Part shown: piece by piece, positions 12,022 through 34,356 of the stretch
How the letters are laid out: the number at the start of each line of letters is the position of its first letter
Position numbering within the stretch: the stretch's first letter is position 1
Origin: Allobosea sp.
Lineage (GTDB): Bacteria > Pseudomonadota > Alphaproteobacteria > Rhizobiales > Beijerinckiaceae
Assembly (NCBI RefSeq): GCF_017308015.1
Contig: NZ_JAFKFW010000009.1
Coordinates: 62,001 to 126,000 of the forward strand
Direction: 5' to 3'
Length of the DNA stretch: 64,000 nucleotides
The notes under the pieces: model-generated
What the model saw: only the letters and a program-made list of their open reading frames with translations
What the model was told of the DNA's origin: nothing
Database searches by the model: none
Program-made: the position numbers and the translations under genes

Positions 12022-12186
12022 CGCGGCATCCTCGGATGCCTGCCTGCTCTCCAGTTGGATGCGTCGTCGCGGATGTACCGGCCGCAACCGACGGGAGGGC
12101 AAAGCCAGTTTCCCGGCGATTGCCGGAACCGCGTAGTCCTGACAGAAGTCAGAGGCCCGTCGCTTCCCAAGCGGCGGGCTTATCAT
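12022..12186 (+). ncRNA. Candidate stress-induced structured small RNA, copy 1
   Basis: About 165 nt between an EcfG-type promoter and an intrinsic terminator, with no plausible ORF. Hairpins seen in order: GGCATC-CTCG-GATGCC (12025-12040); a long stem CTCC-A-GTTGG (12049-12058) with CCGAC-G-GGAG (12088-12097); CCGGC-GATT-GCCGG (12113-12126); CTGAC-AGAA-GTCAG (12139-12152); and the terminator stem (12155-12179). The copy at 34193 keeps all five elements, and three pairs of the first hairpin are changed on both sides. The start assumes transcription begins a few bases after the -10 box. I do not recognise the RNA family. Confidence 0.65.
12155..12183 (+). terminator. Intrinsic terminator of ncRNA copy 1
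   Basis: GCCCGTCGC and GCGGCGGGC form a 9-bp stem around the loop TTCCCAA, followed by a weak T-rich stretch. Confidence 0.65.
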
Positions 12187-12273
12187 GTTATCAAGCTGGC
12201 GGAGACGCCCCTTGGCGCAGCGGTGAGTCGAGCAGAGTTCACGAAGTATCGTTTTCGACGCGCGAGTCCTCGT

Positions 12274-12960
12274 TCAATCCCGACCGAACGGAACGGCCCC
12301 CGACTGCGATAGCTTGCTGTCGAGCCGAGAAACTTTGCCTGGGATCGCCTTTCCTGAGGGTGCTGGCTTGGTGTTCTGACCCGCCAGCGTCCAATAGCCT
12401 TCGATCAGTGCGGCCGCGGCGGAATCGATGTCGGCATCGCTACTCCCGCGACCGAGCGAAAGCCTGACGGCGCCGAGCGCCCTGTCGGGCGAGATGCCGA
12501 GCGCGAGGATGACTGCCGAGGGTTTCGAGCTTCCGGCGTGGCAGGCTGAACCGGTGGATGCCGCGATCGCGGGCGTCGCCTCGAGCAGGTCGTTGCCGAC
12601 CGTTCCGGGAAAGAGCACGCTCAGCGTATTCGGCAGGGTATGTGACCCACCCAGGCGCTTCAGCTCCGGCACGCCCCCGGCAAGCGCTTGCCACAGCCGC
12701 TCCTTCAATGCGGCAATCCGTGTCGCATCCCCCGCCAACCGTTCGCAGGCCATCCGGCAGGCTTGTCCGAGCCCGACGATATAGGGGACGTTCTCGGTCC
12801 CCGGTCGGCGACCGCCCTCCTGCCCTGCCCCGTCGAGAACGCTCGGGATGGCGTGTCCGCTTCGCAGGTAGAGAGCGCCGATCCCCTTGGGCGCGTAGAG
12901 CTTATGTCCGGCGAGCGTCAGCGCATCGATGCCCCAGGCGGCCACGTTGGGCGTGGTGGA
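12274..12960 (-). pseudogene. NifS/IscS-like cysteine desulfurase, 5' part deleted
   Basis: The frame holds the PLP lysine motif LAGHKLYAPKGIGALY and the catalytic cysteine region ASTGSACHAGSSKPS, then the normal C-terminal domain. At about 12958 (NVAAWGIDALT) similarity stops and the frame runs into unrelated sequence, so roughly the first 200 residues are lost. The abrupt junction with an oppositely oriented fragment (12953-13193) suggests a recombination or deletion. Confidence 0.85.
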
Positions 12961-13193
12961 ACGGCGAGGATAAGGCCTGGCAGGTCCCGTTCCGATCGAT
13001 CGAGGAGCTTCGTAAGAGATGGCCGGCGATCGAAGCTGACGCCGAACGCAGCGAGCCGGAAGCTCGAAGGCAACGGCGCGAGGCCGCGAAATCACAGCCC
13101 GAATATGAAGAGGTAAAGGCGACTGTGGCCGAACGCCGGCGCCGGCGGTATCCCGTGCCCGCGAGCGAATTCCCCCGGCCGACCGAGTACTGA
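12953..13193 (+). pseudogene. 3' fragment of an unrecognised gene
   Basis: The last 79 codons read WWNGEDKAWQVPFRSIEEL, then a charged helix (AERSEPEARRQRREAAK) and YPVPASEFPRPTEY. Codon use and composition look coding. The 5' end is cut at the same junction that truncates the cysteine desulfurase. Its TGA overlaps the ATG of the next gene (TGATG), so the two belonged to one operon. Function unknown. Confidence 0.5.
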
Positions 13194-13498
13194 TGTCGCA
13201 TGAACGACCATTAGTCGTCCTTGAGATGCCCGGCGAACTCGTTCCCGCGGACACCGCCCGGCAGCACTATTCGTGGTGCTCAGGACAGCCGGATGACCTG
13301 GGCTGGGCTTTGTGGCGGCGTCCAACTCACGAAGAACTGGTCAGGACCTGGGCTGGACGACGCCCTACCCCGCCGGACGCCCTTCTCCGCGAATGGTGGC
13401 AACCCACCCTCGAGGAACTGCGTTCCGCGCGGCGATCGGCGAAATCCCTGGAGCGTGCTCAGGAAACGCGTCGCATGCCCCGCTCATCCCCAAGCTGA
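13193..13498 (+). CDS. Hypothetical protein, tryptophan-rich
   Basis: 101 residues with repeated tryptophans (YSWCSGQPDDLGWALWRRP, then REWWQPTLEEL). The start overlaps the stop of the upstream fragment. No signal peptide, no membrane helix, no family recognised. With its upstream partner truncated it may no longer be expressed normally. Confidence 0.5.
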   Translation: MSHERPLVVLEMPGELVPADTARQHYSWCSGQPDDLGWALWRRPTHEELVRTWAGRRPTPPDALLREWWQPTLEELRSARRSAKSLERAQETRRMPRSSPS

Positions 13499-13548
13499 AG
13501 CCGTATGCCTGACGCCGTTGGTGGGACGACCGCAACCCGCTGTCGCAG

Positions 13549-13821
13549 TCACTCGAAAGCTATGCCGATCGAGGTCTCATTCCGCCAAACAACCTGTGCT
13601 GGCCTGTCCGTGCCGATTGCGAGAGCGGTAATCAGAACCCTTCCGTCCGGCTCGAAGCCACGCGGGAGCCGCAAGCGCGCACCACCAGGTGAGATTTCGC
13701 GGATCATGCAGCTCCACGCCTGCGCGGCCCCTGGCAGGCGCAGCTTCGCCGCCTGAACCAGGTGGGACCTTTCTTCGCGACGGGGCTGGAGCGCTTGCAT
13801 CACAAACGACACGTAGCTCAC
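13549..13821 (-). CDS. PilZ-domain protein
   Basis: About 90 residues; the core RREERSHLV and then CMIREISPGGARLRLP matches the PilZ fold (R-x3-R near the start, then S-x-G-G-A), a c-di-GMP receptor in many family members. The R-R-x3-R arrangement is slightly atypical, so ligand binding is uncertain. The first seven residues may not be native; a second start lies at MQALQPRR. Confidence 0.65.
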   Translation of the reverse strand: MSYVSFVMQALQPRREERSHLVQAAKLRLPGAAQAWSCMIREISPGGARLRLPRGFEPDGRVLITALAIGTDRPAQVVWRNETSIGIAFE

Positions 13822-13909
13822 GTCAGCTTGCGGAAGAGCTCATTTCACAGCTCAAAGTTTATGGATGGTTGGCGAGATGCTAAATCAGATCGGGTCACCG
13901 CTGGCCTTC

Positions 13910-14287
13910 TTATGAAACCAGTCGTCGCATCGCCGCGGTCATGGCGTGGCGGCTATAGGGCTTGGAAAAGAAAAGCCCCCGCTCCGGCATCTCCTCGGTA
14001 GGAACCGTGCGATGGCCAGAGACGATAATGATCTCGATCGGGGGCCAACGACCGCGAACATACTGGGCAAGCTTCAAGCCATCCATGGAACCCGGCATAT
14101 CGATATCGGTGAGAACGATCCGGATGTCGGCTCGCGATGCCAGAATCTCGATCGCCTGGTCAGCATTCGACGCCTCGAGAGCCTCAAATCCTGCCTCCTC
14201 GACCATGTCGACCGCATCCATCAGCAGAAGCGGCTCGTCTTCGACGATCAGGATGGTCTGTCGGACGTGCGGGCTCTCGTTGACCAT
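13910..14287 (-). CDS. Single-domain response regulator (CheY-like)
   Basis: 125 residues from ATG 14287, preceded by GAGAGCGGA. REC-domain features: acidic pair in ILIVEDEPLLLMD, phospho-acceptor aspartate in VLTDIDMPG, threonine/serine position IIIVSGH, and lysine in FFSKPYS. There is no output domain, so it must act through a partner. No histidine kinase gene is adjacent. It is not PhyR, which has a sigma-like domain. Confidence 0.85.
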   Translation of the reverse strand: MVNESPHVRQTILIVEDEPLLLMDAVDMVEEAGFEALEASNADQAIEILASRADIRIVLTDIDMPGSMDGLKLAQYVRGRWPPIEIIIVSGHRTVPTEEMPERGLFFSKPYSRHAMTAAMRRLVS

Positions 14288-14566
14288 TCCGCTCTCATCA
14301 CTTCGGGCCCGTTGGTAGCAGAAAACCTGGAATCCGGGCCCATCTGGTCGCAACGGAAGACGATCTTCCGGGTTCCTCACTGAGAGAGACGATTTGCCGT
14401 GAACGCCGTTCCGGACGTGTCGAGTTCGCGAGGAGCGCGCCCATAACCGGGGCATTCAAAGACAGGGTCCCTTGGCCGATGCGGTGCTATTACTCGCGGC
14501 AGGTCGGCCCTCCTTACTCCGGCTTCGTCTCAGACGCATTGCGCCCGCAACGGGCGTGCTAAGAGA

Positions 14567-14812
14567 TCACCCGGCCATATAGTGGACCACGATCCAAGCA
14601 AGCCCAGCCAAAATAAGGCCCCCTACGAGCACCGCCAGCACCGGGCGGCCCAGAAATCCCTGACGACCTTCAACCGGCGTCTCCACCGCCGGGTCGGTGG
14701 TCGTATGCGGATCTGGGTGCATTGGTGCGACAACCCCGCCGCCCGAGCCTTCCGTCTGCCTATCGGCTCGGGCGTTGGCCTCGCGAATATCCCGGTCCTG
14801 GCTGTTGGTCAT
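14567..14812 (-). CDS. Small single-pass membrane protein
   Basis: 81 residues: a polar N-terminal half with histidines and prolines (MHPDPHTTTDPAVETP), then GRQGFLGRPVLAVLVGGLIL leading into a C-terminal membrane helix. Similar short proteins sit among stress genes of Hyphomicrobiales. A GGAAC lies upstream (minus strand, about 14870) but the -10 partner is not CGTT. Confidence 0.55.
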   Translation of the reverse strand: MTNSQDRDIREANARADRQTEGSGGGVVAPMHPDPHTTTDPAVETPVEGRQGFLGRPVLAVLVGGLILAGLAWIVVHYMAG

Positions 14813-14937
14813 GGAGCTGCTCCAATTGATCTATGCTGCTAGGGAGACTGCGCCGAGATCCAGAAGTTCCTCCGTCGTCCATACCTTGCCGAGAAACTGA
14901 CCTTGGCTCATGCTGGCCGTCCACTTTGGAGACGAAT

Positions 14938-15147
14938 ATGGCTAGCGGCACTGTGAAATGGTTCAACGAGACCAAGGGTTATGGCTTTATCACCCCGGAT
15001 GGCGGCGGAAACGACGTTTTTGTTCACATCAGTGCGGTGGAACGAGCCGGTCTACGAGGCCTGAACGAGGGCCAGAAGGTCTCTTACGAACTCGTTGCCG
15101 ACAAGAGGTCTGGCAAGCAGTCTGCGGATAACCTGAAAACGGGATAA
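14938..15147 (+). CDS. Cold shock protein (CspA family)
   Basis: 69 residues, one cold-shock domain, binding single-stranded RNA and DNA. The RNP1-like KGYGFITP and RNP2-like VFVHIS motifs are present. The start [14 protein letters not shown] is typical. An intrinsic terminator follows at 15176. The monocistronic layout is usual for this family. Island copies of csp genes are common, and the host will have others. Confidence 0.92.
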
Positions 15148-15175
15148 CGGTCGACGAGTTTGGCCATGTGCGCAC

Positions 15176-15209
15176 GCGTCCGCCGCCATTGAGTGGCGGG
15201 CGCTTTCTT
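15176..15209 (+). terminator. Intrinsic terminator after the cold shock gene
   Basis: GCGTCCGCC and GGCGGGCGC form a 9-bp stem (one T-G pair) around a 10-base loop, followed by TTTCTTTT. Confidence 0.7.
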
Positions 15210-15218
15210 TTGCAAATG

Positions 15219-15371
15219 TCAGACCGCCGCTCGCTGATCAAGACTATCGAACGAGACGATGCGATTTCGCCCGAGACCTTCGGCCGCATAGAGCGCCTTA
15301 TCGGCACGAGCATGCAAACTGAGGGCGACGTCATCGCCTTCGGCCTGAGAGACGCCTGCCGAGAACATGCA
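15219..15371 (-). pseudogene. C-terminal fragment of a GGDEF diguanylate cyclase
   Basis: The frame reads FSAGVSQAEGDDVALSL, then ARADKALYAAEGLGRNRIV, the final helix and strand of GGDEF domains. The GG[D/E]EF active site and everything N-terminal of it are missing. The fragment lies between csp and a micro-gene and is certainly not functional as a cyclase. Confidence 0.75.
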
Positions 15372-15583
15372 GTTGAAATCCGGGCGGCCAGGAAGGGGGT
15401 ACGATCGTCGAACCCTTGTGAGAAAGCACAACCCGCAGCCGTCTGACGGCGATCGAAACTCGCGCTCTCCCAAAGCCGGAGCGCGTTAATGCGGCGTTTC
15501 CCATATCGGTTGCATTTTATCGAAAGCTGGAAACTGCGCGTCCACCTCGGACATTTCTCTCCGACAAACGGAGGTATGACCCG

Positions 15584-15685
15584 ATGCGGTATCTCGTCTC
15601 GCTCGACTTCTGGCTCTGGATCGGCGTCTGGATGAGCGTGAGCCTCATGGCCGTCGCGATGCGGCCGCTCGATTGGATGAGCTGA
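15584..15685 (+). CDS. 33-residue membrane microprotein
   Basis: MRYLVSLDFWLWIGVWMSVS continues as one hydrophobic helix and ends RPLDWMS. A clear GGAGG lies 9 bases before the ATG. Too short for ordinary gene finders; the ribosome site and the hydrophobic, amphipathic-end design are the support. Function unknown. Confidence 0.45.
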   Translation: MRYLVSLDFWLWIGVWMSVSLMAVAMRPLDWMS

Positions 15686-15908
15686 CCGCGGCTCGAAATC
15701 TCGTGGTCCAGCCGACTTCGACCACACGGCTCAATCTCGCCTTGGAGATGATCCAGCAGGAAAGAAGTGAGGAGCTCAGAAGGCCTTGGGCGAAGGCAAC
15801 GACGCTGTGAAGACGTTCGACAAGCCTTGGAACAGGCCGATCTCGGGAAGCCTGCTTTCGCTTGTTGATTGACGATCCCCGACGGCACGTCGCCGGGGAC
15901 CTCTGCGC

Positions 15909-16370
15909 TCAGTCGAGCAAATCAGCCGGGACCTTGCCGCCGTTCTCGGAGAGCTTCTTGATGACTGCCTTGTGCAGCCAGACATTCATCGTCGCCGAGT
16001 CGTTGGTATCACCCGTGTAACCGAGTTCTTGCGCCAGTTCCTTGCGGGCGGTCAGGCTGCTGTCGATCTTGAGTGCCTTGAGCAGGTCGACAATGGACGT
16101 CTTCCAGTTCAGCTGCTGGCCGCTGTCCTTGACCGCCTTGTCGAGGATCGGCGCGACGTCGACCTGCTGCGAGGCCGCCGATCCAGGCGCAGTGCCGATG
16201 TTTGCCGTGGTCTGACCGACGGTCGTCCCTCCCGGCGACGAGGCCGGTGCGGTGGAAGTGCCGGACGATGGGACAACCGCACCGGGTGCGGGAGCAGACG
16301 TTGAAGTGGCGACCGTATCGGCCTTGGCCTCGCCGAAGATGGCCTTCTTGATGCTGTCGAAAATTCCCAT
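15909..16370 (-). CDS. DUF3597 protein
   Basis: 153 residues from ATG 16370. The start MGIFDSIKKAIFGEAKAD and the C-terminal block LNWKTSIVDLLKALKIDSS, LAQELGYTGDTNDSATMNVW and GGKVPADL are diagnostic for DUF3597; an A/S/T/P-rich linker joins them. Function unknown, though the domain has a peptidoglycan-related or LysM-associated context in some genomes. It starts 2 bases after the DUF892 gene, so both share the EcfG-type promoter at 16914-16938. Confidence 0.85.
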   Translation of the reverse strand: MGIFDSIKKAIFGEAKADTVATSTSAPAPGAVVPSSGTSTAPASSPGGTTVGQTTANIGTAPGSAASQQVDVAPILDKAVKDSGQQLNWKTSIVDLLKALKIDSSLTARKELAQELGYTGDTNDSATMNVWLHKAVIKKLSENGGKVPADLLD

Positions 16371-16372
16371 GA

Positions 16373-16876
16373 TCAGGCTGCCTTCTTCGTCGCGGCGGTG
16401 TTGGCGGCGCCGCCGAGCTGCGTCAATGTCTTGTCGGTCTTGGTCTCCTCGGCGAGCGTCGCGTCGAGCAGCGTGACCGCATCCTTGTGGCCGAGCTGCT
16501 GAGCCCACGCTTTGAGGGTGCCGTAGCGGGCCATCTCATAGTGCTCGACGGCCTGTGCCGAGGCCACCAAGCCTGCGTCGATCGCCGGGCTGTCGCCGTA
16601 ATCCTCAATGACCGCCTTGCCTTCCTCGATGATGCCCAGGATGGCGTCGCAGGTCTTGCCGCGCGGGGCCTTGCCGATGAGCTCGAACACCTCGCCGAGG
16701 CGCTCGACGTGACCTTCGGTCTCCTCGCGATGGGTCTCGAAAGCCTTCTTGAGTTCGGGCGACTTGGCCGCCTTCGCCATCTTCGGCAGCGCCTTCAGTA
16801 TCTGCTTCTCCGCGTAATAGACGTCCTTGAGCATGTCATGGAACAGGTCGTCGAGCGGCTTCGGTTCGGTCGCCAT
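16373..16876 (-). CDS. DUF892 (YciE/YciF-type) ferritin-like protein
   Basis: 167 residues forming a four-helix ferritin-like domain. The signature DLFHDMLKDVYYAEKQILKAL is at the start (residues 10-30), with further Glu and His ligand candidates in HREETEGHVERL and AVEHYEMARYG. Members bind a di-metal centre and are stress-induced in enterobacteria. It has an alanine/lysine tail. It is the first gene of a two-gene operon behind an exact EcfG-type promoter, which fits the known behaviour. Confidence 0.88.
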   Translation of the reverse strand: MATEPKPLDDLFHDMLKDVYYAEKQILKALPKMAKAAKSPELKKAFETHREETEGHVERLGEVFELIGKAPRGKTCDAILGIIEEGKAVIEDYGDSPAIDAGLVASAQAVEHYEMARYGTLKAWAQQLGHKDAVTLLDATLAEETKTDKTLTQLGGAANTAATKKAA

Positions 16877-16913
16877 CTAATCCTCCAGCGATTTGGGTGG
16901 TCGATGGCTGCTG

Positions 16914-16938
16914 AACGAACCCTGAGAGCCCATGTTCC
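16914..16938 (-). promoter_or_regulatory. EcfG-type promoter GGAAC-N16-CGTT (DUF892-DUF3597)
   Basis: Exact match, 16-base spacing, 38 bases ahead of the DUF892 start. It is divergent from the promoter at 16952-16977, with only 13 bases between the two GGAAC boxes. Confidence 0.78.
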
Positions 16939-16951
16939 ATTCCGCTCCGCT

Positions 16952-16977
16952 GGAACTTTTGGAGGCAATCTGCCGTT
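16952..16977 (+). promoter_or_regulatory. EcfG-type promoter GGAAC-N17-CGTT (PepSY-like and YflT-like genes)
   Basis: Exact match, 17-base spacing, 46 bases upstream of the start at 17023. Together with 16914-16938 it forms a divergent stress promoter pair. Confidence 0.78.
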
Positions 16978-17022
16978 GGATTGTGCATCGCGGCATCGGC
17001 CGCACGCCCACGGGAGACCATC

Positions 17023-17322
17023 ATGAAGAAGCTGCTCATTGCCACCTTGATCGCCTCCGCGACATCCTTTGGCGCGATCGCACAGACGTCGACGACGTCG
17101 CCGATGCCCGCCCCAAAGGCTGACGCCGACAAGAATGCCCCGCTGCCGGGCGCCAACAGCTTCACCGAGGGCCAGGCCAAGAGCCGCCTCGAGGCCAACG
17201 GCTATTCAAACGTTGGAGCCTTGAAGAAGGACGACAACGGCGTTTGGAAGGGCACCGCGACCCACTCGGGGGCGCAGGTCAACGTCTCGGTCGATTATCG
17301 CGGCAATATCACCCGCAACTGA
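17023..17322 (+). CDS. Secreted PepSY-like small protein
   Basis: 99 residues from ATG 17023. A signal peptide (MKKLLIATLIASATSFGAIA, cut about AQT) precedes a domain reading FTEGQAKSRLEANGYSNV, KKDDNGVWKGTA and VNVSVDYRGNIT, which resembles PepSY/PepSY_2 modules. Expected in the periplasm; possibly inhibitory or binding, which is inference. First gene of a stress operon with the next gene. Confidence 0.7.
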   Translation: MKKLLIATLIASATSFGAIAQTSTTSPMPAPKADADKNAPLPGANSFTEGQAKSRLEANGYSNVGALKKDDNGVWKGTATHSGAQVNVSVDYRGNITRN

Positions 17323-17358
17323 TCCGTGCCTCTCGCACCGCAAAAACTGGAGAACGAC

Positions 17359-17925
17359 ATGACCCGTACGCTGACCCGTTCCTACGATAGCCACGCCACC
17401 GCCCGCTCGGTCGTGGACCAACTCGAGGCCGCCGGCGTTTCCAGCAGCGCCATCAGCATTGTCGGCAGCGACGGCAAGACCGACGAGACCAACGCCGCCG
17501 AAGGTGCCGGAATCGGCGCCGGCGTCGGCGGCGCAGCCGGCCTGCTGACCGGCCTTGGCATCATGGCGATCCCCGGCGTCGGCCCGGTTGTTGCCGCAGG
17601 CTGGCTTGCCGCCACAGCCGCAGGTGCCGTCGCCGGTGCCGCCGCCGGTGGTCTGGTCGGCTCATTCGTGAAGGAAGGCCACGATGAGGACGAGGCGAAC
17701 TACTACGCCGAGACGGTTCGCCGCGGCGGATCGGTCGTATCCGTCCGCACCGAACCCGAGCACGAGGCCACCGTTCAAGCTATCCTTGACGGCGCTACTC
17801 CGATCGACCGTGCGACCCGCGAGGCCGACTATCGAGCCGGCGGCTGGTCGCGCTTCGACGAAAATGCCGATCCTTACGTTCGGGATGCCACCGCGTCCGG
17901 CCGAGTGCCGCCTGCCGTGATCTGA
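17359..17925 (+). CDS. YflT/GSP17M-like general stress protein with glycine-rich middle
   Basis: 188 residues from ATG 17359, following GGAG. The N-terminus (LTRSYDSHATARSVVDQL, then SAISIVGSDG) matches the general stress protein 17M/YflT fold. The middle is a glycine/alanine zipper (GAGIGAGVGGAAGLL...AGAVAGAAAGGLVG) that may insert into membranes. The C-terminus is polar. It lies 36 bases after the PepSY-like gene and ends at a strong terminator, so the two form one EcfG-driven operon. Confidence 0.72.
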   Translation: MTRTLTRSYDSHATARSVVDQLEAAGVSSSAISIVGSDGKTDETNAAEGAGIGAGVGGAAGLLTGLGIMAIPGVGPVVAAGWLAATAAGAVAGAAAGGLVGSFVKEGHDEDEANYYAETVRRGGSVVSVRTEPEHEATVQAILDGATPIDRATREADYRAGGWSRFDENADPYVRDATASGRVPPAVI

Positions 17926-17944
17926 CGGCACGCGCATATTGAAC

Positions 17945-17973
17945 AACGGCCTCGGGCGACCGGGGCCGTTTTC
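17945..17973 (+). terminator. Intrinsic terminator after the stress operon
   Basis: AACGGCCTCGG and CCGGGGCCGTT form an 11-bp stem with a GCGA loop, followed by TTTT. Confidence 0.8.
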
Positions 17974-18148
17974 TGTTGGGCGGTGAGAGAAGCGCGAGAG
18001 CTTCTTTGCATGTTTCGCGGCGGCTTGATTGATCGATCAGGCAGAGGCTCTGAGAGTGATCGAGAGGCAGGTCATCACGCGACGATCTCTACCTCGGTCG
18101 GCAAAAGCGCGCTTTACCAAGAAGCGCAGCAGACGGAGCATGGGAGCG

Positions 18149-18967
18149 TCAGAGCAAGCGTGCCTGTGCAGGTTCGCGGTCGACTTCGTTCTGGCCATTT
18201 CGCCGCTCAAGTTCGGTCTTAGCACTGAACCGAAGATCGACATCACGACTGGCGGCAAGTTCGGAGAGCTCCGGCGCGCTGAGCTGATCCCATGTCTTCC
18301 CTCGATCAGGGCCAGTCGGTACGCGGGGCAACAAGCCGGGCTCTATGCTCCACGCAAGCAATTGGTCGATCGAAGCTTCATTCAACATGTCGCGGAGATG
18401 GTGCGCAGTCACGTACGCATCGGGCATCGCGCGATGAGCGGGCAAGCCAATCTCGTGCACGAGGCCCGCCGGCTTCCGCTGATACCGAAGCATCTGATTT
18501 GAGAACCGGGGCAGCTCCGGCCAGAGGCGCAAGGCGCATTTCCAGGTGCAGATCCATTGAGCACCCGCGCTCAGCCGCGGTCGGCAGTATCGCTGTTCGA
18601 ACGCCGCTCGGTGCGCCGCCAAAGCCAATACTCCGCGCTCCGGCTTCAGGATAGACGGCGCTATATCCTTCCAGTACGGCGCGCCAGCAACGTCCTCATC
18701 CCGAATATGGTGCACTGCCATCGTATCGGCGGAGATGGCGCGGCCGGGATTGACGAGAAGCGCGCCGCGTTCCTCGGTGACTCCCCAGCGTCCATCGGCT
18801 CCTAGCGAGACGTCCTGCCAACCGATTTCACAGACATCATGGGGGCCGTCCCCGGCCGTCTCAAGGTCGATGACCCGAACGCGATTACTGAGCATGGATT
18901 GTAGATCAGCATTTCCGCTGGTCCATACAAGGCAGGAGCCTTTCGATCCCACCGGCAGCCGGATCAC
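18149..18967 (-). CDS. DnaQ-like (DEDDh) 3'-5' exonuclease in the mutagenesis operon
   Basis: 272 residues if started at GTG 18967, which overlaps the dnaE2 stop by 4 bases; ATG 18898 ([15 protein letters not shown]) is the alternative. Exo I is VIDLETAG (D and E), Exo III is HRAMPDA (H-x4-D), and Exo II reads HRAAFEQRY with glutamate where aspartate is usual. The C-terminal part ([14 protein letters not shown]) resembles the tail of exonuclease X-type proteins. Placement at the end of imuA-imuB-dnaE2 suggests it is made with the error-prone polymerase; whether it proofreads, processes ends or is incidental is unknown. Confidence 0.75.
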
Positions 18968-27021: not shown

Positions 27022-27046
27022 GGAACCAGCGTTTTCCCGCCGCGTT
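27022..27046 (+). promoter_or_regulatory. EcfG-type promoter GGAAC-N16-CGTT (small membrane gene)
   Basis: Exact match, 16-base spacing. The ATG of the next gene is 25 bases downstream, with GGAGG in between. Confidence 0.78.
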
Positions 27047-27070
27047 CATGCGCTCAAAGCGGAGGCAAAA

Positions 27071-27235
27071 ATGTTGCGTCTTTCGTTTCTTTCGGCGCTG
27101 TTCTCCATAGTCGGCATCACCTCGGTCCTGGCATCCCCCGCGATGCGCGCTCCTTGGGTCGGCGATCTGGCGTGGCTTATCATCGCGGCGACTTGCGTCG
27201 TCGCCGTTATGGCTTCCGAGAGTGAGAGCGCGTAA
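27071..27235 (+). CDS. Small two-helix membrane protein
   Basis: 54 residues: MLRLSFLSALFSIVGITSVL, a short polar turn (AMRAPWVGD) and LAWLIIAATCVVAVM. A perfect GGAGG lies 6 bases before the ATG and an exact EcfG promoter stands ahead, so it is probably a real stress-induced membrane microprotein. Its 3' end overlaps the convergent PAP2 gene by 29 bases. Confidence 0.65.
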   Translation: MLRLSFLSALFSIVGITSVLASPAMRAPWVGDLAWLIIAATCVVAVMASESESA

Positions 27236-27743
27236 CCCACCTGGTGCAACGCTCGACAACCACGCCGCCGACGAACCCCAGCGCTACGCCCGAGGGCCAA
27301 TGCGCGAGCATGCCCACCCGGGCTGACGCCAAACCCAAAGCAGCTGACCACAGAGAAGCGGGATAGGCCACGCGGTCAGCGAAGAAGGCCGCCATCGCAC
27401 CGGCATGCATCGCATGGCCCGAAGGCATCGCGTCAAGCGCTCGGCCGGTCTTCAATCGCCCGGATCCAATCACCCGGTCAGGCCGTATCTGGTCGACGAT
27501 CTGCTTGATGCCGTGATGCAAGGTCGTCGTGGCCGCAATAGTCGACAGAAAGCGAACAGCATGACTGCGGGCAGCGCTTTGGCCCGGCGTCGTCAGAAGC
27601 CAAAGTGCACCCCCTCCCAGCAGCACGCGCGCATCGGCTACCCACCCGAATGAGAACGCGACACGCGCACCCGGCGAAGGCAGACGGGCGGCTCGCGTGA
27701 CTGCGCGATCAATCTCAGACACTGGCAGTGCAATGCGCCGCAC
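27207..27743 (-). CDS. PAP2-family phosphatase-like membrane protein
   Basis: 178 residues. Motif 1 is KQIVDQIRPDR (K-x6-RP), motif 2 PSGHAMH, motif 3 ARVGMLAHWPSG. In motif 3 the catalytic histidine is present but the first residue is A where S is usual and the trailing aspartate is S, so activity may be weakened. Several hydrophobic helices fit an integral membrane phosphatidate or undecaprenyl pyrophosphate phosphatase. It starts 8 bases after the DUF2934 gene and is likely cotranscribed from the EcfG promoter at 27996. Confidence 0.75.
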   Translation of the reverse strand: MRRIALPVSEIDRAVTRAARLPSPGARVAFSFGWVADARVLLGGGALWLLTTPGQSAARSHAVRFLSTIAATTTLHHGIKQIVDQIRPDRVIGSGRLKTGRALDAMPSGHAMHAGAMAAFFADRVAYPASLWSAALGLASARVGMLAHWPSGVALGFVGGVVVERCTRWVTRSHSRKP

Positions 27744-27751
27744 CTGGCGAC

Positions 27752-27964
27752 TCAGCTCTTTTTCGTACGCGGCTTGCGAATGGGCGTTTCAGGGTCGGCA
27801 CCGGCTTGCTGCTCGCTTACAGCGTGCAGCCCGTGCCTCTGCATGGCCCACGCAGCTTTTGCTGCGGCCCAGTGTTCTCGGTCTCGCCCGTCTGGCTGCC
27901 CCTCCTTCAACCAAATTTGGTAGGCCAGTCTGCGGATTTCTGCGTGGTCAGCGTCGTGGTTCAT
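27752..27964 (-). CDS. DUF2934 small protein
   Basis: 70 residues from ATG 27964. EIRRLAYQIWLKEGQPDGRD followed by REHWAAAKAAW is the DUF2934 signature (I-R-x-R/L-A-Y-x-I-W-E/K-x-E-G). The tail is basic. DUF2934 genes are frequent on stress and plant-associated islands. Behind an exact EcfG promoter and followed by PAP2. Confidence 0.85.
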   Translation of the reverse strand: MNHDADHAEIRRLAYQIWLKEGQPDGRDREHWAAAKAAWAMQRHGLHAVSEQQAGADPETPIRKPRTKKS

Positions 27965-27995
27965 CGGTGTCGTCTCCGGGGGCTTCGCGGCGGAA

Positions 27996-28021
27996 AACGC
28001 CCTCGGTCGACCTGCAGTTCC
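27996..28021 (-). promoter_or_regulatory. EcfG-type promoter GGAAC-N17-CGTT (DUF2934-PAP2)
   Basis: Exact match on the minus strand, 17-base spacing, 32 bases upstream of the DUF2934 start. Confidence 0.78.
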
Positions 28022-28570
28022 GCCTGCGTTGCCCACTTGCCGACCAGTTGCGAATGCAGCGCGCCCAGGTGCTCCCCAGATCTTCCTTACCGCGCTTCAC
28101 CTCGCGCGTCCCTGACGGCCATCTGCCGGGACTGCCTAATCCCGCTCGCGGGGCGCCCGTCGTTTCGCGCCCGGCGGCCTTGTCGAGCGACGGTGGCGGA
28201 CGGCGACCCTTTCGCTAGGCTCTAAGCAGACCGGAACTGGAGCGGAACGGCGACAGTTGACCTGTTTCAGGGGATCGAACGATTCCCGGAGCATTCGGCC
28301 GCCGCCAGGACACCAGTGAGGACCATCGAATTGGCCGAGGAAGAAGCCCCAAAACTGCCCAGAGACCTTCATTGGGCGGCCCGCGATTTTCCCCTCTGCG
28401 TGGCGTGCTGAAATTGCTCGTCGAGGCAGACGGTTCCCGTGTGGGCTGAGCCACCTGCGAGCGGCCACCATTTTGGTCGCGGCTCTGTCGGTCTTTGCAT
28501 TCCTCGGATACCAGCCGACCTTTTTCCACTGCAAGCTCGTGGTCGTCGACGACGCCTGGGCCTCGGTGGG
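28022..28570. other. No supported gene
   Basis: About 550 bases with only arginine- or glycine-rich frames on both strands, no ribosome site of note and no family similarity. Probably debris. Confidence 0.5.
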
Positions 28571-28714
28571 CTCGACAGCGATGTCTTGGCCCATTTCCCG
28601 CATGGAGGGCTAGGCTATCAGAATCGGATCAACGAGGCGCTTCGGAAGGGGATGCCGGCCCCGGCAGACGAAGGGCTTAGGCCCGAGGATCTCAACTCGT
28701 CGAATGACGGTTGA
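28571..28714 (+). pseudogene. BrnA-like antitoxin C-terminal remnant
   Basis: LDSDVLAHFPHGGLGYQNRI then NEALRKGMPAP follows the ribbon-helix-helix end of BrnA antitoxins (L-D-x-D-V-L-x-x-F, G-x-G-Y-Q-T-R-I-N). Only about 48 codons remain; no start and no BrnT toxin gene are adjacent, so the module is a relic. Confidence 0.55.
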
Positions 28715-28861
28715 TCGCGGCTCCCCGATCTTGGAGCGCTTCGAGGCAACGTGAGGCGGCGGCGCCACAGCCGGCAAATTTTACGGCGCGAATATGGTTA
28801 GCGATTTCCTAATAATCCGCCCCCGATAACCTGTAGCGGGGGAATCGCTGGGAACGCTGCC

Positions 28862-29452
28862 ATGTGCCGTGCGCTGACTTGCCTTGCCTTCGCCCTGTGT
28901 CTTCTGATTGGCGCTCCTTGGGAAGCGAGCGCGGCTGACCTCGCCAACCCTCTCGCATATGCCCCGCCCGTCGTAGCCCGTTCTCTAATCTCCGAAATTC
29001 GCGGAGGAGTGTTCGCCCATGCCGTTGGGACTCGCGAGGATGGATCAGTCGACATCAACGGCGAGATCCTGTTCTCGAAGCCGCTAATGCCGGCCGACCC
29101 GCTCATGGCTTTTCTTGTGCCGCGGCTCCACCTTGGCACCACGATCAACACCGCCGGCGATACGAGCCAGTTTTACGCCGGTTTCACCTGGACCTACGAC
29201 CTCACGTCCAAGGTCTTCGTCGAGGCCAGCATTGGTGCGGCCTTCCACACCGGGGAGACCGGGCGCTTCCGTGTGCCAGATCGACTGAGCCTCGGCTGCT
29301 CGCCTTTGATCCGAGGGACTGGCTCGGTCGGCTACCGCTTCAACGAAAATTGGTCGATCATGGCGACCGTCGAGCACATCTCGAACGCCAATCTCTGTCA
29401 TGCCAACCAAGGCATGACGAATTACGGCGTCCGCGTCGGCTATACCTTCTAG
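28862..29452 (+). CDS. PagL-like lipid A 3-O-deacylase (acyloxyacyl hydrolase family)
   Basis: 196 residues. A signal peptide (ALCLLIGAPWEASA, cut about residue 23) precedes an outer-membrane beta-barrel with alternating strands. The C-terminal catalytic motif VEHISNANLC gives the His-Ser of PagL (H-x-S-N), and the last residue is F as needed for barrel assembly. It removes the 3-linked acyl chain of lipid A, altering LPS. Start at ATG 28862; no frameshift. It is followed by two more envelope genes on the same strand. Confidence 0.82.
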   Translation: MCRALTCLAFALCLLIGAPWEASAADLANPLAYAPPVVARSLISEIRGGVFAHAVGTREDGSVDINGEILFSKPLMPADPLMAFLVPRLHLGTTINTAGDTSQFYAGFTWTYDLTSKVFVEASIGAAFHTGETGRFRVPDRLSLGCSPLIRGTGSVGYRFNENWSIMATVEHISNANLCHANQGMTNYGVRVGYTF

Positions 29453-29510
29453 ACCGGGTTCGTAACCATTCGTCGCTAGGCTTCGTATCACAGCGCCAAG
29501 GCGCAGGGAG

Positions 29511-30155
29511 ATGGCAATGGTTATGGCGTCGAGCGTAGCCGCACCCATCTTCGGAGCCATGCTCTGCATCACCGCAGGACCAGTGAGCGCTCAGCAGGCG
29601 CCACTCCCCGCGGGAGCTCAAGCCTGCAAGTTTCACGCATTCATCGTCGATGGCGAAGGCAAGACAAATGTGCGATCGGCGCCGTCCGCTCGGGCGGCCG
29701 TTGTCGGCACGTTGCCGGCTGCAAGCAAGCGCCTGCAAAGCCCGAACGAGGGCGCGCAGGTCGACGTCATCGCGACCAGGGACGGCTTCTTCCTGATCGA
29801 GAATGCCAACGTCGATGACATCGAGACCGCCGACGAGAAGCGGAAGCTGGGGAAATGGCATCGAGGCCGAGGCTGGGTGCATGGGTCGCGGCTCGACTTC
29901 CACATTCAATCTGGCGACGGCCTGCGAGACACTCCCTCAGCAGAAGCCCGAGTCTCAGTTCCCTTCCCGGGCGGAGATGGCGAACCAGGCATTCATGTCG
30001 CCGTCATTCACGCTTGCCGAGGGAAGAACGTCGATGTGACTATAAACGCCCTCGAAGGGAAGCCGCTCGGGAGGGGCTGGATTGTACCCGGTGCCGCGTC
30101 CGGCAGCTCTCCGCCCATCACTATCTGCTCGGCGCAGTTGACCACTTGCAGCTGA
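29511..30155 (+). CDS. Secreted protein with a bacterial SH3-like domain
   Basis: 214 residues. A signal peptide ends near SAQQA (residue 28). EGKTNVRSAPSARAAVVGTL is the opening of an SH3b module, continuing with DGFFLI and GRGWVHGSRL. The C-terminal 70 residues are a second, unrecognised region with a conserved-looking Cys pair (ACRGK...ITIC). SH3b modules usually bind cell wall peptides. Start among ATG 29511, 29517 or 29523 is uncertain. Confidence 0.7.
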   Translation: MAMVMASSVAAPIFGAMLCITAGPVSAQQAPLPAGAQACKFHAFIVDGEGKTNVRSAPSARAAVVGTLPAASKRLQSPNEGAQVDVIATRDGFFLIENANVDDIETADEKRKLGKWHRGRGWVHGSRLDFHIQSGDGLRDTPSAEARVSVPFPGGDGEPGIHVAVIHACRGKNVDVTINALEGKPLGRGWIVPGAASGSSPPITICSAQLTTCS

Positions 30156-30257
30156 TCTAGCCACACGCGGCGAGTTGAAAGGGATCCGAGCTGCGCTCTC
30201 ACACGTAATGCTCGTGAGGCGCCGCGAGAAAGGCCGCCCGGCGCCAGGGAGGCCACT

Positions 30258-30808
30258 ATGAAATCTGTGCTGCTCGTTGCCGTCGCCACCGTTTCGCTCG
30301 CCGGTTGCGCTGGTCCCTCGTTCACTGAGACGCAGAAGGCGCCAGAGCCGCGCAAGCGGATCGATGTTCAGCGCTTCTATACGGGGACTTGGCACGAGAT
30401 CGCGCGGCGCCCCATGACGATCACGGATGGCTGCGTCGCCGGCGCTACGGAATACTGGCCGATCGGGACCGGCGGCATCCAGGTTCTTGACTCCTGTCGG
30501 ATGCGTAGCCCGGGCGGCGAGCTGAAATCAGTCGGCGGGCCCGGCACGATCCTCGATCCCGGCATCAACGCCAAGCTTCGGGTCGACTACAAGCTCTACG
30601 GCTTTGTGTGCAGCGCGAATACTGGGTGCTGGACCGGGCGAACGACTACAGCTGGTTCATATCGGCCGACCCGACTCTGCGCGATCTGTATATCTTCACG
30701 CGCGATCCGCGGATTAGTCCGGCGCAGCGCAACCAGTTGGTCGCGCGGGCGATTGCGCTGGGATATGACGTTAGTAAGCTCGAATTTCCCGAGCAACCGC
30801 GGAACTAG
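30258..30808 (+). pseudogene. Bacterial lipocalin (Blc-like) lipoprotein, frameshifted
   Basis: The first frame has a lipobox (VSLAGCAG, Cys about 17) and the lipocalin GxW region FYTGTWHEIARRPM. Near 30608 a duplicated GT moves the reading to another frame with YWVLDRANDYSWFISADPTL and YIFTRDP, the typical Blc C-terminus, ending at 30808. Without the extra GT the protein would be about 180 residues. Lipocalins of this type sit in the outer membrane and handle lipids under stress. Confidence 0.85.
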
Positions 30809-30910
30809 TTGAAAAGGGGCAACCGGAAGTGCGGAGTCGGGCGAATTCGCGGCGACGCGGCCGTAGCCTACAAGCCGGGAATACCTTTTACGCCGCGCCC
30901 TGTCGCACCA

Positions 30911-30994
30911 CTACAGCAGCCAGCGGCGCGAAGCGACCCAGGCGATCGCAGCTATCGCCATCATCCCCGCAGCAACGACGAGCGGGTCTTCCAT
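30911..30994 (-). CDS. 27-residue membrane microprotein (second of a pair)
   Basis: MEDPLVVAAGMMAIAAIAWV then ASRRWLL: a single hydrophobic helix with a basic C-terminal end. AGGA occurs 8 bases before the ATG, inside the last codons of the preceding micro-gene. The two start 82 bases apart on the same strand and look translationally coupled. Confidence 0.45.
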   Translation of the reverse strand: MEDPLVVAAGMMAIAAIAWVASRRWLL

Positions 30995-30998
30995 CGGA

Positions 30999-31076
30999 TC
31001 ATTCCTGCGGATCGGTGATGTAAAAGCCGAAAGCCGATGCACAGGCCAGAACGACGCTAATCTCAAGCAATCCCAT
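30999..31076 (-). CDS. 25-residue membrane microprotein (first of a pair)
   Basis: MGLLEISVVLACASAFGFYI then TDPQE. A strong GGAGG lies 6 bases before the ATG. A near EcfG promoter (GGAAC-N17-TGTT) stands about 30 bases further upstream. The remainder of 30809-31211 holds nothing else I can support. Confidence 0.5.
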   Translation of the reverse strand: MGLLEISVVLACASAFGFYITDPQE

Positions 31077-31105
31077 TGTTGCCTCCTACCTGACGATGGA
31101 GAAGC

Positions 31106-31131
31106 AACAAGCTGAGGGTTGCCATTGTTCC
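31106..31131 (-). promoter_or_regulatory. EcfG-like promoter with one mismatch, GGAAC-N17-TGTT (microprotein pair)
   Basis: Same box and spacing as the exact sites but TGTT at -10. Positioned 30 bases upstream of the 25-residue micro-gene. Confidence 0.4.
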
Positions 31132-31211
31132 GCCATGAGTATGACCACGTCGCGGCTGGCTGTCAGGGCTGCCAATAGCGTTCCAAGCAACGCTCGATCA
31201 GCTCCTGCTCG

Positions 31212-31370
31212 TCATGCTGGCACCAGCGACGCGATAATGAAGGTGAGCCGGGCATGCTCGCGTTCCAGATCGGGATCATCGAGCAATGGCTTCAGAAGCC
31301 GCCAAGTGGCTTCGAGCGCACCCTGTGCGCGGGAGAGGTCAGCGGGTTCCTTGAACGAGAACAGCGGCAT
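31212..31370 (-). CDS. Small hypothetical protein, 52 residues
   Basis: MPLFSFKEPADLSRAQGALE continues as a charged helical protein (LLKPLLDDPDLEREHARL) to TFIIASLVPA. After the stop, another frame reads DEQELIERCLERYWQP, so the native protein may have been longer and be frameshifted near 31214. A GGAAC-N16-GGTT near-promoter lies at 31421-31445. No family recognised. Confidence 0.4.
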   Translation of the reverse strand: MPLFSFKEPADLSRAQGALEATWRLLKPLLDDPDLEREHARLTFIIASLVPA

Positions 31371-31385
31371 CGTGACCCCATGCAT

Positions 31386-32003
31386 TACCGTTCGCGAGCC
31401 CTAGCGAAAGGCGCCTGACGAACCGTTGACGCAAGACCAAGTTCCTTCGCGAAGACAAAACCCGCCGGGATCTCCGACGGGTTTGTGGGCCTCCAGCCCT
31501 TTGCTCTGCCGCGAGGACGAGCACTACCGAATTTCGCGCCAGCCGTAGATCGGGAGCTGCCGGTACGTCCGCGGCTCGCTTTCCGATCGGGGCAGAAGAA
31601 GCGAGCCGGCCGGCTGGGGGAAGTTACGCCGGCTCGCTTCTGGTGGTCATCTTGGCATAGGGTCCACCGCTGTCGTCGATGGATGCAACGACGATCGCGG
31701 CTTACAAACCAGCTTGTGCGTCTTGAGTTCCGCCGCGTGGCAAATAGTTCGCCACCCAATGCGCCGGGCTGGCTTGGAGACAGGCTGAGACGAAGCACCT
31801 GCGCTATTGGCGCAGAGGAACGATGCCAAAGCGGCCGGCCACGGCACCGATGATGAGGAGCTTCAGCTATTACGCGGCAGGAAAACATCCCGGTCGGTAG
31901 ACCGAATTCACCATCATGTGCAGGAGGCGGGAGACGTCGGCTTCGAAACTGCGGTTCTTAGTGGTGGCGGCGGTCGTTGGTACGGTCCAGGGAGGTTCCC
32001 GCG
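31386..32003. other. No supported gene; two long inverted repeats
   Basis: No frame here looks coding. There is a hairpin around 31457-31485 (AAACCCG/CGGGTTT) with a T-run on the minus strand, and a 14-bp perfect repeat at 31597-31641. They may be terminators of lost minus-strand genes. Confidence 0.45.
31597..31641. repeat. 14-bp perfect inverted repeat with 17-base loop
   Basis: AGAAGCGAGCCGGC (31597-31610) and GCCGGCTCGCTTCT (31628-31641). On the minus strand it is followed by TCTGCC rather than a T-run, so the terminator reading is weak; it could be a transposon scar or a cruciform site. Confidence 0.6.
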
Positions 32004-32198
32004 ATGAGTGACGCGAATTTAGGTTCTGTGCCCGGGCGGCGAAAGTGGCATCCGAGCCAGACGCGGGCGACTGAGGGAGCGTCGGCGTGGAATTGCCCCC
32101 ACCCCGAACCGGCGCCCCCCATCGAGCAGAGAACCAACGCAGCAGAGGAGCGTTACAAGCCGGGATGCGCCGCGACGCGCAAATTGCAGAGGTTTGAT

Positions 32199-32315
32199 AT
32201 GATCAGATTGATCTTGGCTGGCGCCGCTGGGTGGATGCTCGCGACACGCCCCGAATTCCGTGAACGGGTATTCGGCGTAGCGAGGGATATCTTCCAGCGA
32301 CTAACCGCCCGCTGA
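32199..32315 (+). CDS. Small membrane-associated protein, 38 residues
   Basis: MIRLILAGAAGWMLATRPEF then a basic amphipathic stretch (RERVFGVARDIFQRLTAR). AGAGG precedes the ATG at 32199. A longer start at 32004 adds a proline- and charge-rich leader that looks non-coding. Lies just ahead of the MOSC gene on the same strand. Confidence 0.4.
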   Translation: MIRLILAGAAGWMLATRPEFRERVFGVARDIFQRLTAR

Positions 32316-32328
32316 GTGGCCAACTATC

Positions 32329-32832
32329 GTGCCCTTTAACCCCTCATCCTCGCTCACGAAGCTTCTGAATGCACAGGTGAGATCGGGGCAGGTTGTTTGG
32401 CTTGGTGTCCGCCCCGGCCGCCGAGAACCCATGCTGGCGATCGAGAGCGTAGATCTCCATGTCGAACGAGGGCTTGTCGGCGATCGTTACACTCGCCCGG
32501 CCGGCAGCCGCCAAGTTACTTTGATCCAGGCTGAGCACTTGGCAGCTATCGCCAGTCATTTGGGCCGCGATCAGATTCTGCCCGCAGATTTGCGGCGCAA
32601 TATCGTTACCCGGGGTATCAACCTGTTTGCTCTCAAAGAGAAGTGCTTCAGGCTGGGCTCCGCCATTTTGGAGACGACGGGAGAGTGTCATCCGTGTTCT
32701 CGAATGGAAGAGATACTCGGCGTGGGCGGTTACAATGCTGTTCGGGGTCTCGGCGGTATCACAGCGCGGATCATCCAAGGTGGAAGAGCCGATGTCGGCG
32801 ACGACCTCGTCGCTCTGCCCTCGGACACATAG
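32329..32832 (+). CDS. MOSC-domain protein (YiiM-like)
   Basis: 167 residues from GTG 32329. GLVGDRYTRPAGSRQVTL, LRRNIVTRGINLFAL and the cysteine motif GECHPCSRMEEILG followed by GGYNAVRGLGGI are the MOSC fold used by sulfur-carrier domains of molybdenum cofactor sulfurases and YiiM/MARC proteins. A stand-alone MOSC of this size may handle sulfur or N-hydroxylated compounds. The reading frame is intact. Confidence 0.87.
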   Translation: MPFNPSSSLTKLLNAQVRSGQVVWLGVRPGRREPMLAIESVDLHVERGLVGDRYTRPAGSRQVTLIQAEHLAAIASHLGRDQILPADLRRNIVTRGINLFALKEKCFRLGSAILETTGECHPCSRMEEILGVGGYNAVRGLGGITARIIQGGRADVGDDLVALPSDT

Positions 32833-32887
32833 GCAGCTTTCCACGCCGACGTGTTGCGGCCGATCACGCCTCAGGCGATTGTCGACA

Positions 32888-33012
32888 TCAGGAACGTGGA
32901 TCGACAGTGTCGGCCACCGCCTCCTTCTTAGCTCGGGCAGCAGCGTCATCATGAGGATGAAGGCTGACAGCACGAAGCATATGCTGTTCGTGACGATCAA
33001 CGGCCACTCGCG
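32888..33012 (-). pseudogene. SemiSWEET C-terminal fragment
   Basis: EWPLIVTNSICFVLSAFILM matches the last helix of the intact SemiSWEET at 10853-11149 (EWPLIITNSICFVLSAFIL); a frameshift near 32945 leads to the matching tail KKEAVADTVDPRS. The 5' two-thirds are replaced at about 33012 by a truncated IstA gene. So the island once held two SemiSWEET genes. Confidence 0.82.
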
Positions 33013-34019
33013 ATGACCGAGTACTTGTTGTTGTCGAAGCGCACGAGGCAGGTCTTCGATACCGAGGCTGGCAGTGAGTGGAAGCCATCGAACCGCCCCG
33101 CGTAAGGCACCAGGCTCGGGCGCTCGGCTTCGAACATCTCCCAGATCGTGCGGTCACGCTGTTCGGGATGGCGGTGGGCCTTGGCGTAGCGAAGCACCTG
33201 GTCCAGCAGCCAGGCGTTCAACTCGTCGTAGTTCTTGACCCGCAGGCGCGGGGCGAAGAAGCGCTCGCGCACGAGCCCGACCTGGTTCTCGACCTGCCCC
33301 TTCTCCCAGCCCGAGGCCGGCGTGCAGGCGACAGGGTCGACCAGGTAATGGCTGCACATCTGCTGGAAGCGGCGGTTATAGGCCCGCTCCTTGCCGACGA
33401 AGATCGTCTCCATCGCAGTCTTCATGTTGTCGTAGATGCCGCGCGTGCAGGCGCCCTTGAAGAAGGCGAAGGCCCGGTCATGGGCGTCGAAGACCATCTC
33501 CTGGCTCTCGCGTGGATAGGCCCGCACGAACAGCATGCGCGAGTGACAAAGCCGGACATGCGCCACCTTCACCTGGGTCGTGGCGCCATTGATGACGACG
33601 ATCTCGTGGCTCCAGTCGAACTGGTAGGCCTCGCCGGGCGCGAAGCTCAAAGGCACATAGGCGTCGGCTGTAACGGCGGATTGCTCGCGGCGCCAGCCTC
33701 GCGCATAGCGACGAACGGCATCGTATCCGCCCTCGTAGCCGAGATCCCGCAGCTCTTCGAAAAGACGGATCAGCGTCAGGCGCTCGCGGGCAGGCTTGCC
33801 GTCGTTCACCATCAGCAGCCGATCCAGCTCAGGGCGCCAGGGCCCTATCTTCGGCTGCGGCTGAACCTTCCGCTCATACTCGAACGACGTCGCGCCAGAG
33901 CGCAGCACCTTGCGCACCGTGTTCCGAGAGACGTGCAGCTCGCGGGCGATCTCCTTGATCGTCTTCCCCCGGATCGAAAACTCGCGCCGGATCCGCGCAA
34001 TCGTATCCACGCTCTTCAT
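33012..34019 (-). pseudogene. IS21-family transposase IstA, 3'-truncated
   Basis: From ATG 34019 (MKSVDTIARIRREFSIRGKT): HTH (IKEIARELHVSRNTVRKVL), then an rve-type DDE core with AYQFDWSHEI, IYDNMKTAM and EKGQVENQVG, and the C-terminal part up to NNKYSV, where native sequence ends and five foreign residues follow. About 150 residues are missing. A fragment carrying exactly this missing part, from another element, lies at 42790-43180. Confidence 0.85.
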
Positions 34020-34100
34020 CCCCCGCCCGCCCATCCGAAACCAGGACGGGCAGTCTCACCGAAGCCGGCTCAAGGGGGTCAAAGTTGGACGCCGATCCCC
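33012..34100 (-). mobile_element. IS21-family remnant with one terminus
   Basis: Carries istA without its C-terminus and no istB. The surviving end (34060-34120) shows tandem IS21-type terminal repeats, GGTCAAAGTTGGACGCCGA and GGTCAAACTTGCACGCCGA. The other end was lost in the fusion with SemiSWEET at about 33012. Confidence 0.75.
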
Positions 34101-34161
34101 CGCTTCACAGGGTCAAACTTGCACGCCGAAACACACGAAGATCGCCGCTCGTAGCCTTGTC

Positions 34162-34187
34162 GGAACCAAACCCGCGCTTATCTCGTT
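34162..34187 (+). promoter_or_regulatory. EcfG-type promoter GGAAC-N17-CGTT (ncRNA copy 2)
   Basis: Exact match, 17-base spacing, in front of the second copy of the structured RNA. The first half of the spacer differs from that of copy 1, while both boxes and GCGCTTATCTCGTTGTC are kept. Confidence 0.75.
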
Positions 34188-34192
34188 GTCCG

Positions 34193-34356
34193 CGCGGTGC
34201 CATCGGGGCACCGGCTGCTCTCCAGTCGGATGCGTCGCCGCGGATGTACCGGCCGCAGCCGACAGGAGCGCAAAGTCAGTTTCCCGGCGATTGCCGGAAC
34301 CGCCTAGTCCTGACAAAAGTCAGAGGCCCGCCGTTCTCCGAGCGGCGGGCTTTTAT
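34193..34356 (+). ncRNA. Candidate stress-induced structured small RNA, copy 2
   Basis: The same layout as copy 1: hairpin GGTGCC-ATCGG-GGCACC (34196-34212), long stem CTCC-A-GTCGG with CCGAC-A-GGAG, CCGGC-GATT-GCCGG, CTGAC-AAAA-GTCAG, and the terminator. In hairpin 1 three of six pairs differ from copy 1 (C-G to T-A, A-T to G-C, T-A to C-G) with pairing kept, and the T-G of the copy 1 terminator and long stem become C-G. That pattern argues for selection on structure. No ORF, no match to a family I know. Confidence 0.65.
34326..34356 (+). terminator. Intrinsic terminator of ncRNA copy 2
   Basis: GCCCGCCG and CGGCGGGC form an 8-bp stem with the loop TTCTCCGAG, followed by TTTTATTT. Confidence 0.8.

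Follow-up and report, generated by a model that had tools for sequence, protein, structure and literature searches.

What are the two similar blocks of about 160 nt that lie 22 kb apart in a 64,000-nt stretch of Allobosea sp. DNA (assembly GCF_017308015.1, contig NZ_JAFKFW010000009.1, positions 62,001–126,000; hereafter the window)? A sequence-only reading had taken them for two copies of a selected, stress-induced small RNA (sRNA). Our analysis indicates that both loci are almost certainly transcribed noncoding RNA genes of a family found in Bosea, and that their long hairpin presents a nine-base loop, CGGAUGUAC, which recurs behind cold-shock (csp) genes. The genome of the strain (G000) comprises 4.89 Mb in 56 contigs, and both copies lie on contig C8.

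Two Structured RNAs and Their Family

Copies 1 and 2 had a mean column identity of 88% in an alignment of 240-nt windows. Their parts are listed below with the evidence for each.

12022–12186, plus strand: sRNA copy 1 (covariance-model match at 12023–12180, fold, covariation)
12025–12040, plus strand: H1, the first hairpin of copy 1 (fold, alignment)
12045–12101, plus strand: H2, the long hairpin with the shared loop, copy 1 (fold, swapped-arm test)
12070–12078, plus strand: fixed apical loop CGGAUGUAC of H2, copy 1 (word search, alignment of 22 copies)
12113–12126, plus strand: H3, copy 1 (fold)
12139–12152, plus strand: H4, copy 1, with the linker AGUCCU just before it (fold, alignment)
12155–12179, plus strand: H5, the terminator hairpin of copy 1 (fold)
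34193–34356, plus strand: sRNA copy 2 (covariance-model match at 34194–34351, fold, covariation)
34241–34249, plus strand: fixed apical loop CGGAUGUAC of H2, copy 2 (word search)

The five ordered hairpins and the end terminator proposed for both copies were borne out: copy 1 folds at −84.7 kcal/mol (z −5.07) and copy 2 at −87.7 kcal/mol (z −5.00), and none of 200 shuffles was equally stable in either case. In H1, copy 1 pairs GGCAUC with GAUGCC, and copy 2 pairs GGUGCC with GGCACC; three of the six pairs are thus changed on both sides (C-G to U-A, A-U to G-C, and U-A to C-G) with pairing kept, as had been noticed, and the U-G to C-G changes reported for the long stem and the terminator are present in the alignment of the copies. 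The statement that the blocks contain no open reading frame (ORF) holds in part. Chance frames cross both copies (for example, 12007–12186, minus strand, 59 aa); the length of the match ranges from 147 to 160 nt over 22 homologs and steps by single bases, which argues, without a formal coding test, against a kept reading frame. Likewise, both copies are real, but the count of two was too low, since the genome also holds a further copy (G000:C33:47911–48046, 74% identity), a 3'-end piece (C42:25033–25077), and a distant relative.

A DNA search at E 0.01 gave matches in 12 of 61 relatives, namely 11 members of the genus (this strain included) and one genome outside it, the latter over 26 bases. 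A covariance model built from 11 copies matched 33 of the 67 Bosea genomes at E 0.1, and full-length relatives (at least 90 bits) amounted to 22 copies in 13 of these genomes. After realignment of the 22 copies to the model, a procedure fitted to the structure and hence biased towards it, 97.0% of the cells pair and 12 of the 46 pairs are doubly changed. Pairing, double changes, and covariation score each surpassed every one of the 500 shuffles, which the count of additional pair types did not (147 of 500). Covariation over the homologs thus supports the earlier suggestion of a selected structured RNA, and the comparisons point to an RNA family in Bosea with several members per genome. One copy is located on plasmid NZ_CP102773.1 (580,662 bases) of Bosea sp. 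NBC_00550.

A full-model search of 397 genomes of the order revealed nothing convincing outside the genus. Eight genomes were matched, including our own and another of the genus; the matches in the remaining six reached at most 29.6 bits and lacked the loop, and were taken as chance.

The distant relative is the third member of the family in the window:

31459–31619, minus strand: distant member with the loop CGGACGUAC (15-mer at 31560–31574; covariance-model match, loop, close counterparts)

Its score of 21.9 bits (E 0.029) is not significant alone, and a spurious match of 22.3 bits was obtained on the wrong strand of the copy 1 terminator region (12154–12263, minus strand); the assignment relies on the loop and the close counterparts. 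The 3' part of the RNA, a AGUCCUGAC-type stretch with the terminator, was also seen without the remaining RNA at three loci, L004 (the C42 piece), L018, and L029.

A Fixed Loop on Free Stems

Neither the H2 loop nor the AGUCCU linker had been discussed in the sequence-only reading. The loop CGGAUGUAC is identical in 18 of the 22 copies and the linker is kept in 20, while H1 has 15 different loops among them. The word CCGCGGAYGTACCGG occurs 66 times in 33 of the 67 Bosea genomes (open position T 64 times, C twice), against 17 occurrences of the reversed control. The loop is carried by several Bosea RNA types. One is that of the window. A second, the 177-nt type, has the AGUCCU linker, the same AGUCCUGAC hairpin, and terminator loops rich in CUCC. 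Further types, to which the third member in the window belongs, have a different 5' hairpin, and in still others the hairpin sits between a csp gene and the gene for ribosomal protein S21.

A first pairing test, allowing no bulge by the loop, was negative (3.22 of 8 positions paired against 3.39 in shuffled sequence); it was replaced by a folding test that permits bulges because the stems carry one beside the loop. Over 79 distinct sites, the loop with its own arms folds at a mean of −30.6 kcal/mol, compared with −23.1 kcal/mol for swapped arms (standard deviation 0.44, best −24.7; 5000 shuffles), although the sites inside the genus are related and their counts not independent. In the order sample (23 sites, four of them from Bosea), the values were −28.7 with own and −20.0 with swapped arms. 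Across the sites, the two arms change in concert around the loop. Candidate sites L086 and L126, whose own arms rank badly, were rejected as chance, and L169–L171 were also taken as chance.

In our genome, the 9-mer CGGATGTAC has 18 sites against 14 of the reversed control and hence is not enriched as a bare word. Seven loop sites form clear hairpins: two csp 3' ends, both window copies, an RNA on C33, another on C55, and a site on C18 which may or may not be coding. An eighth site, on C5, may be coding.

The Same Hairpin behind Cold-Shock Genes

Outside the genus, the bare loop word was not enriched (23 matches in the order sample against about 59 of the reversed control); such counts therefore prove nothing there, and position, folding, and neighbours constitute the evidence. 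The G-C-closed word was found in 18 of the 397 order genomes, at 23 sites, of which 19 lie outside Bosea. At least seven of the 19 follow a csp gene (six by motif, one by ORF), and three (L074, L075, L096) follow PstS-type PBP_like_2 proteins; two of these proteins were run against TIGR02136 and fell below the cut-off. With A-U closure allowed, the word was present in 12 of 289 genomes of the class, ours included, and a csp gene lay upstream in eight of the 11 others.

The 18-mer GACCACGGATGTACTGGC has at least 122 named sites in 119 stretches, 118 of the sites with sufficient upstream DNA. Among the matches listed, a csp ORF ends within 200 nt upstream at 67 of the 118 sites, in 51 cases at 20–39 nt, and TTTT occurs within 110 nt after the hairpin at 61 of the 67 csp-type and 48 of the 51 other sites.

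At L091, two fixed-loop hairpins with different stems stand in tandem. At L159, L110, and L140, a csp gene is followed by the fixed-loop hairpin, a terminator-like stretch, and the ribosomal protein S21 gene (at L110, S21 was identified by reading only). The window itself contains a cold-shock-domain gene (14833–15147, plus strand), 2.6 kb past copy 1, at whose 3' end the hairpin is missing.

Promoter Motif and Stress Setting

Sequences resembling promoters of the general stress sigma factor EcfG were located as follows.

11991–12016, plus strand: EcfG-type promoter motif GGAAC-N17-CGTT of copy 1 (motif count against expectation, positional enrichment)
34162–34187, plus strand: EcfG-type promoter motif GGAAC-N17-CGTT of copy 2 (motif count against expectation)
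11931–11956, minus strand: divergent EcfG-type motif before a small-protein gene at 11708–11893, minus strand (motif scan)

The motif had been recognized upstream of both copies, and the RNA starts then proposed lie 6 nt after it. Strict EcfG-type motifs number 13 in the window, with 0.93 expected from shuffles. The motif precedes 13 of 14 copies in an early set. In a wider test (GGAAC-N15..18-GTT, 130 to 30 nt before the loop word), it was found upstream of 39 of 58 sites not of csp type, a class set by a crude protein regular expression and including a few chance sites; 32 of the 39 fall inside a 7-nt position range. The controls gave 0 of 7 csp-type sites, 7 of 174 distant upstream windows, and 0.35% of mono-shuffled sequence. 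A NepR gene was identified on contig C23 (single match). The motif statistics and this gene support the stress promoter, while induction under stress is something that we infer.

Twenty ORFs of the window were scanned; those near the copies match cold-shock domain, DUF892, DUF3597, lipocalin, and response-regulator families. Copy 1 stands back to back with small ORFs, the leading one of which encodes a 61-aa protein and has an EcfG-type motif to itself. For a small protein encoded nearby, no relatives were found in viral contigs. With its 13 strict motifs, the window resembles a general-stress island.

Comparison with Known RNAs

Both ar35 and EcfG-type sRNAs are already known kinds of RNA. 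A check against Rfam left the window RNAs without a family: none was matched at gathering for the window, and neither copy 1 nor the third member reached the cut-off of any family; the loop is nevertheless shared with ar35 (RF02346). Like the window RNAs, ar35 has a central hairpin, GACC-aCGGAUGUACu-GGC, with the same nine-base loop, but the two differ in H1, H3, H4, and promoter, as well as in loop closure, which is G-C in the window RNAs and A-U in ar35. The ar35 model (gathering cut-off 45 bits) found no match in the window and none in 11970–12210 up to E 10. In the genus, it exceeded the cut-off in 7 of the 67 genomes, and no window copy was among the matches listed (four of the five from our genome); a csp 3' end of our genome (G000:C33:61866–62003) reached 49.1 bits. 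CC1840 (RF01521, cut-off 50 bits) was missed with 19.7 bits at copy 1 and 17.3 bits at the third member. We take ar35 to be the Sinorhizobium meliloti RNA smrB35/SmelB053. According to PMC2873474, smrB35 (SmelB053) was observed as a 144-nt transcript.

GsrN of Caulobacter resembles the window RNAs in being a small RNA behind a sigma-EcfG-type promoter, which in the window is present as a motif only (PMC5869019). The conserved C-rich 5' loop of GsrN has no counterpart in the window family, whose variable H1 loops are not C-rich. GsrN lies beside ecfG, nepR, and phyR, a typical though not universal arrangement, whereas the copies in our genome are located on C8 and C33, away from NepR on C23. 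BLAST hits of GsrN were reported to be confined to Caulobacteraceae (PMC5869019).

Among the open-licence papers searched, we found no account of these RNAs or of their link to csp 3' ends, and no study of sRNAs in Bosea.

Proposed Mechanism and Its Alternatives

We propose that the window RNAs would be transcribed under EcfG as noncoding RNAs of ~160 nt and ended by their own terminator. H2 would serve as a portable recognition module whose stem is free in sequence and displays the fixed loop. This loop would be bound in trans by a factor, most probably a protein that binds RNA, or else a partner RNA. The same factor would bind the matching hairpin at the 3' ends of csp mRNAs and in ar35 sRNAs. 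When stress sets in, docking of the window RNAs to the factor would let them compete with csp-type messages or draw the factor away from these, and other messages may be met via unpaired stretches such as AGUCCU. We assign this full model, built on the observed structure, covariation, promoter motif, family, shared loop, and csp linkage, a probability of about 45%. Its component that the loop is a specific recognition element is, in our view, probably correct.

Several points weigh against the model. Only two of the eight csp genes of our genome have the hairpin, and that of the window has none; 51 of the 118 GACCACGGATGTACTGGC sites lack a csp gene within 200 nt among the matches listed; and the motif is missing at 19 of the 58 non-csp sites. 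The csp 3' ends are mostly closed by A-U and the window RNAs by G-C, so that two classes of sites are possible. Loop identity within the 22 copies, at 98%, is only slightly above that of the H2 stem (94%), and the relatedness of the sites within the genus applies here too. Transcription, EcfG dependence, the factor, competition, and target pairing are steps that we infer.

The alternative of a conventional sRNA that is driven by EcfG and acts in trans, pairing near ribosome-binding sites through a seed in CGGAUGUAC, AGUCCU, or the terminator loop, is a real though doubtful possibility; the csp 3' hairpins would then be sRNAs derived from 3' untranslated regions with the same seed. The conservation of the AGUCCU linker and its recurrence in the 177-nt type agree with it, and precedents exist: GsrN pairs with katG; for it and further EcfG sRNAs, pairing is the established or presumed mode of action (PMC5869019); and sigma-E2 motifs stand ahead of 23 S. 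meliloti sRNAs (PMC3616915). However, the 18 sites of the 9-mer in our genome, a search that covered the complement, indicate no conserved target, no target prediction having been made, and a whole nine-letter constant loop on free stems exceeds the usual need of a seed. Pairing of the terminator loop with Shine–Dalgarno sequences, imagined in the sequence-only reading, is weakly supported: although pyrimidines dominate this loop in many copies, it is not kept, reading CAUCGA, CAUCA, CACUG, or CACACCA in five of the 22, and the H2 loop and the linker are unpaired parts of higher conservation.

An improbable alternative is that the hairpin is a passive 3'-end cap, a very stable loop shape that shields upstream RNA from exonucleases and whose stability the sRNAs borrow. 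Stabilisers of 3' ends are common at places such as the ends of csp and PstS-type genes, and the hairpin stands directly after genes of both kinds, mostly with the TTTT stretch downstream noted above. However, H2 is central and not 3'-terminal in the Bosea RNAs, the cap leaves their EcfG promoters unexplained, and the constant loop on interchangeable stems favours a bound factor.

The idea that the block belongs to a mobile element, for instance as an IS110 bridge RNA or as the transposon end named earlier as a possible refutation, is scarcely credible. In its favour, the family is patchy among Bosea genomes, the plasmid copy is followed at a distance of 456 bp by an IS110 transposase gene, and an IS21-like transposase ORF (32997–34034, minus strand) ends 158 bp before copy 2. 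Against it, flank similarity among the 22 copies is confined to small groups with different neighbours, so that no constant place beside a transposase was found (transposases were sought at some copies only); a stretch of more than 1 kb ahead of copy 1 is shared with copies from four further genomes; copy 2 corresponds to a copy in another genome, G012 (96.6% over 1190 bp downstream), with IS21-like sequence in place of ~1 kb upstream that G012 retains, and the single IS110-type ORF among those scanned lies 4.3 kb from copy 1.

Implications for Bosea and Its Relatives

Returning to the recognition module, the sRNAs that titrate CsrA, such as RsmZ, are multi-copy and have repeated GGA loops. 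The family, as proposed, would resemble them as multi-copy RNAs showing a protein a fixed loop word, but the window RNAs have one loop per RNA, and repeated GGA loops are missing. By analogy, CGGAUGUAC hairpins might be bound by an unrecognised regulator of csp messages, an RNA-binding protein of Alphaproteobacteria, which EcfG-driven decoy RNAs would titrate in Bosea; this reading is speculative and rather unlikely, as is the parallel it would draw with CsrA/RsmZ, with another protein and another loop. No recognisable CsrA is present in rhizobial genomes, according to PMC7143759.

For Bosea, our analysis adds a multi-copy family of stress-type sRNAs, and it connects EcfG-type sRNAs with ar35 and with csp 3' ends, three things that we found nowhere connected in the papers searched. 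The fixed loop offers a ready bait for the putative factor and for asking what makes csp genes of several alphaproteobacterial groups retain this loop.

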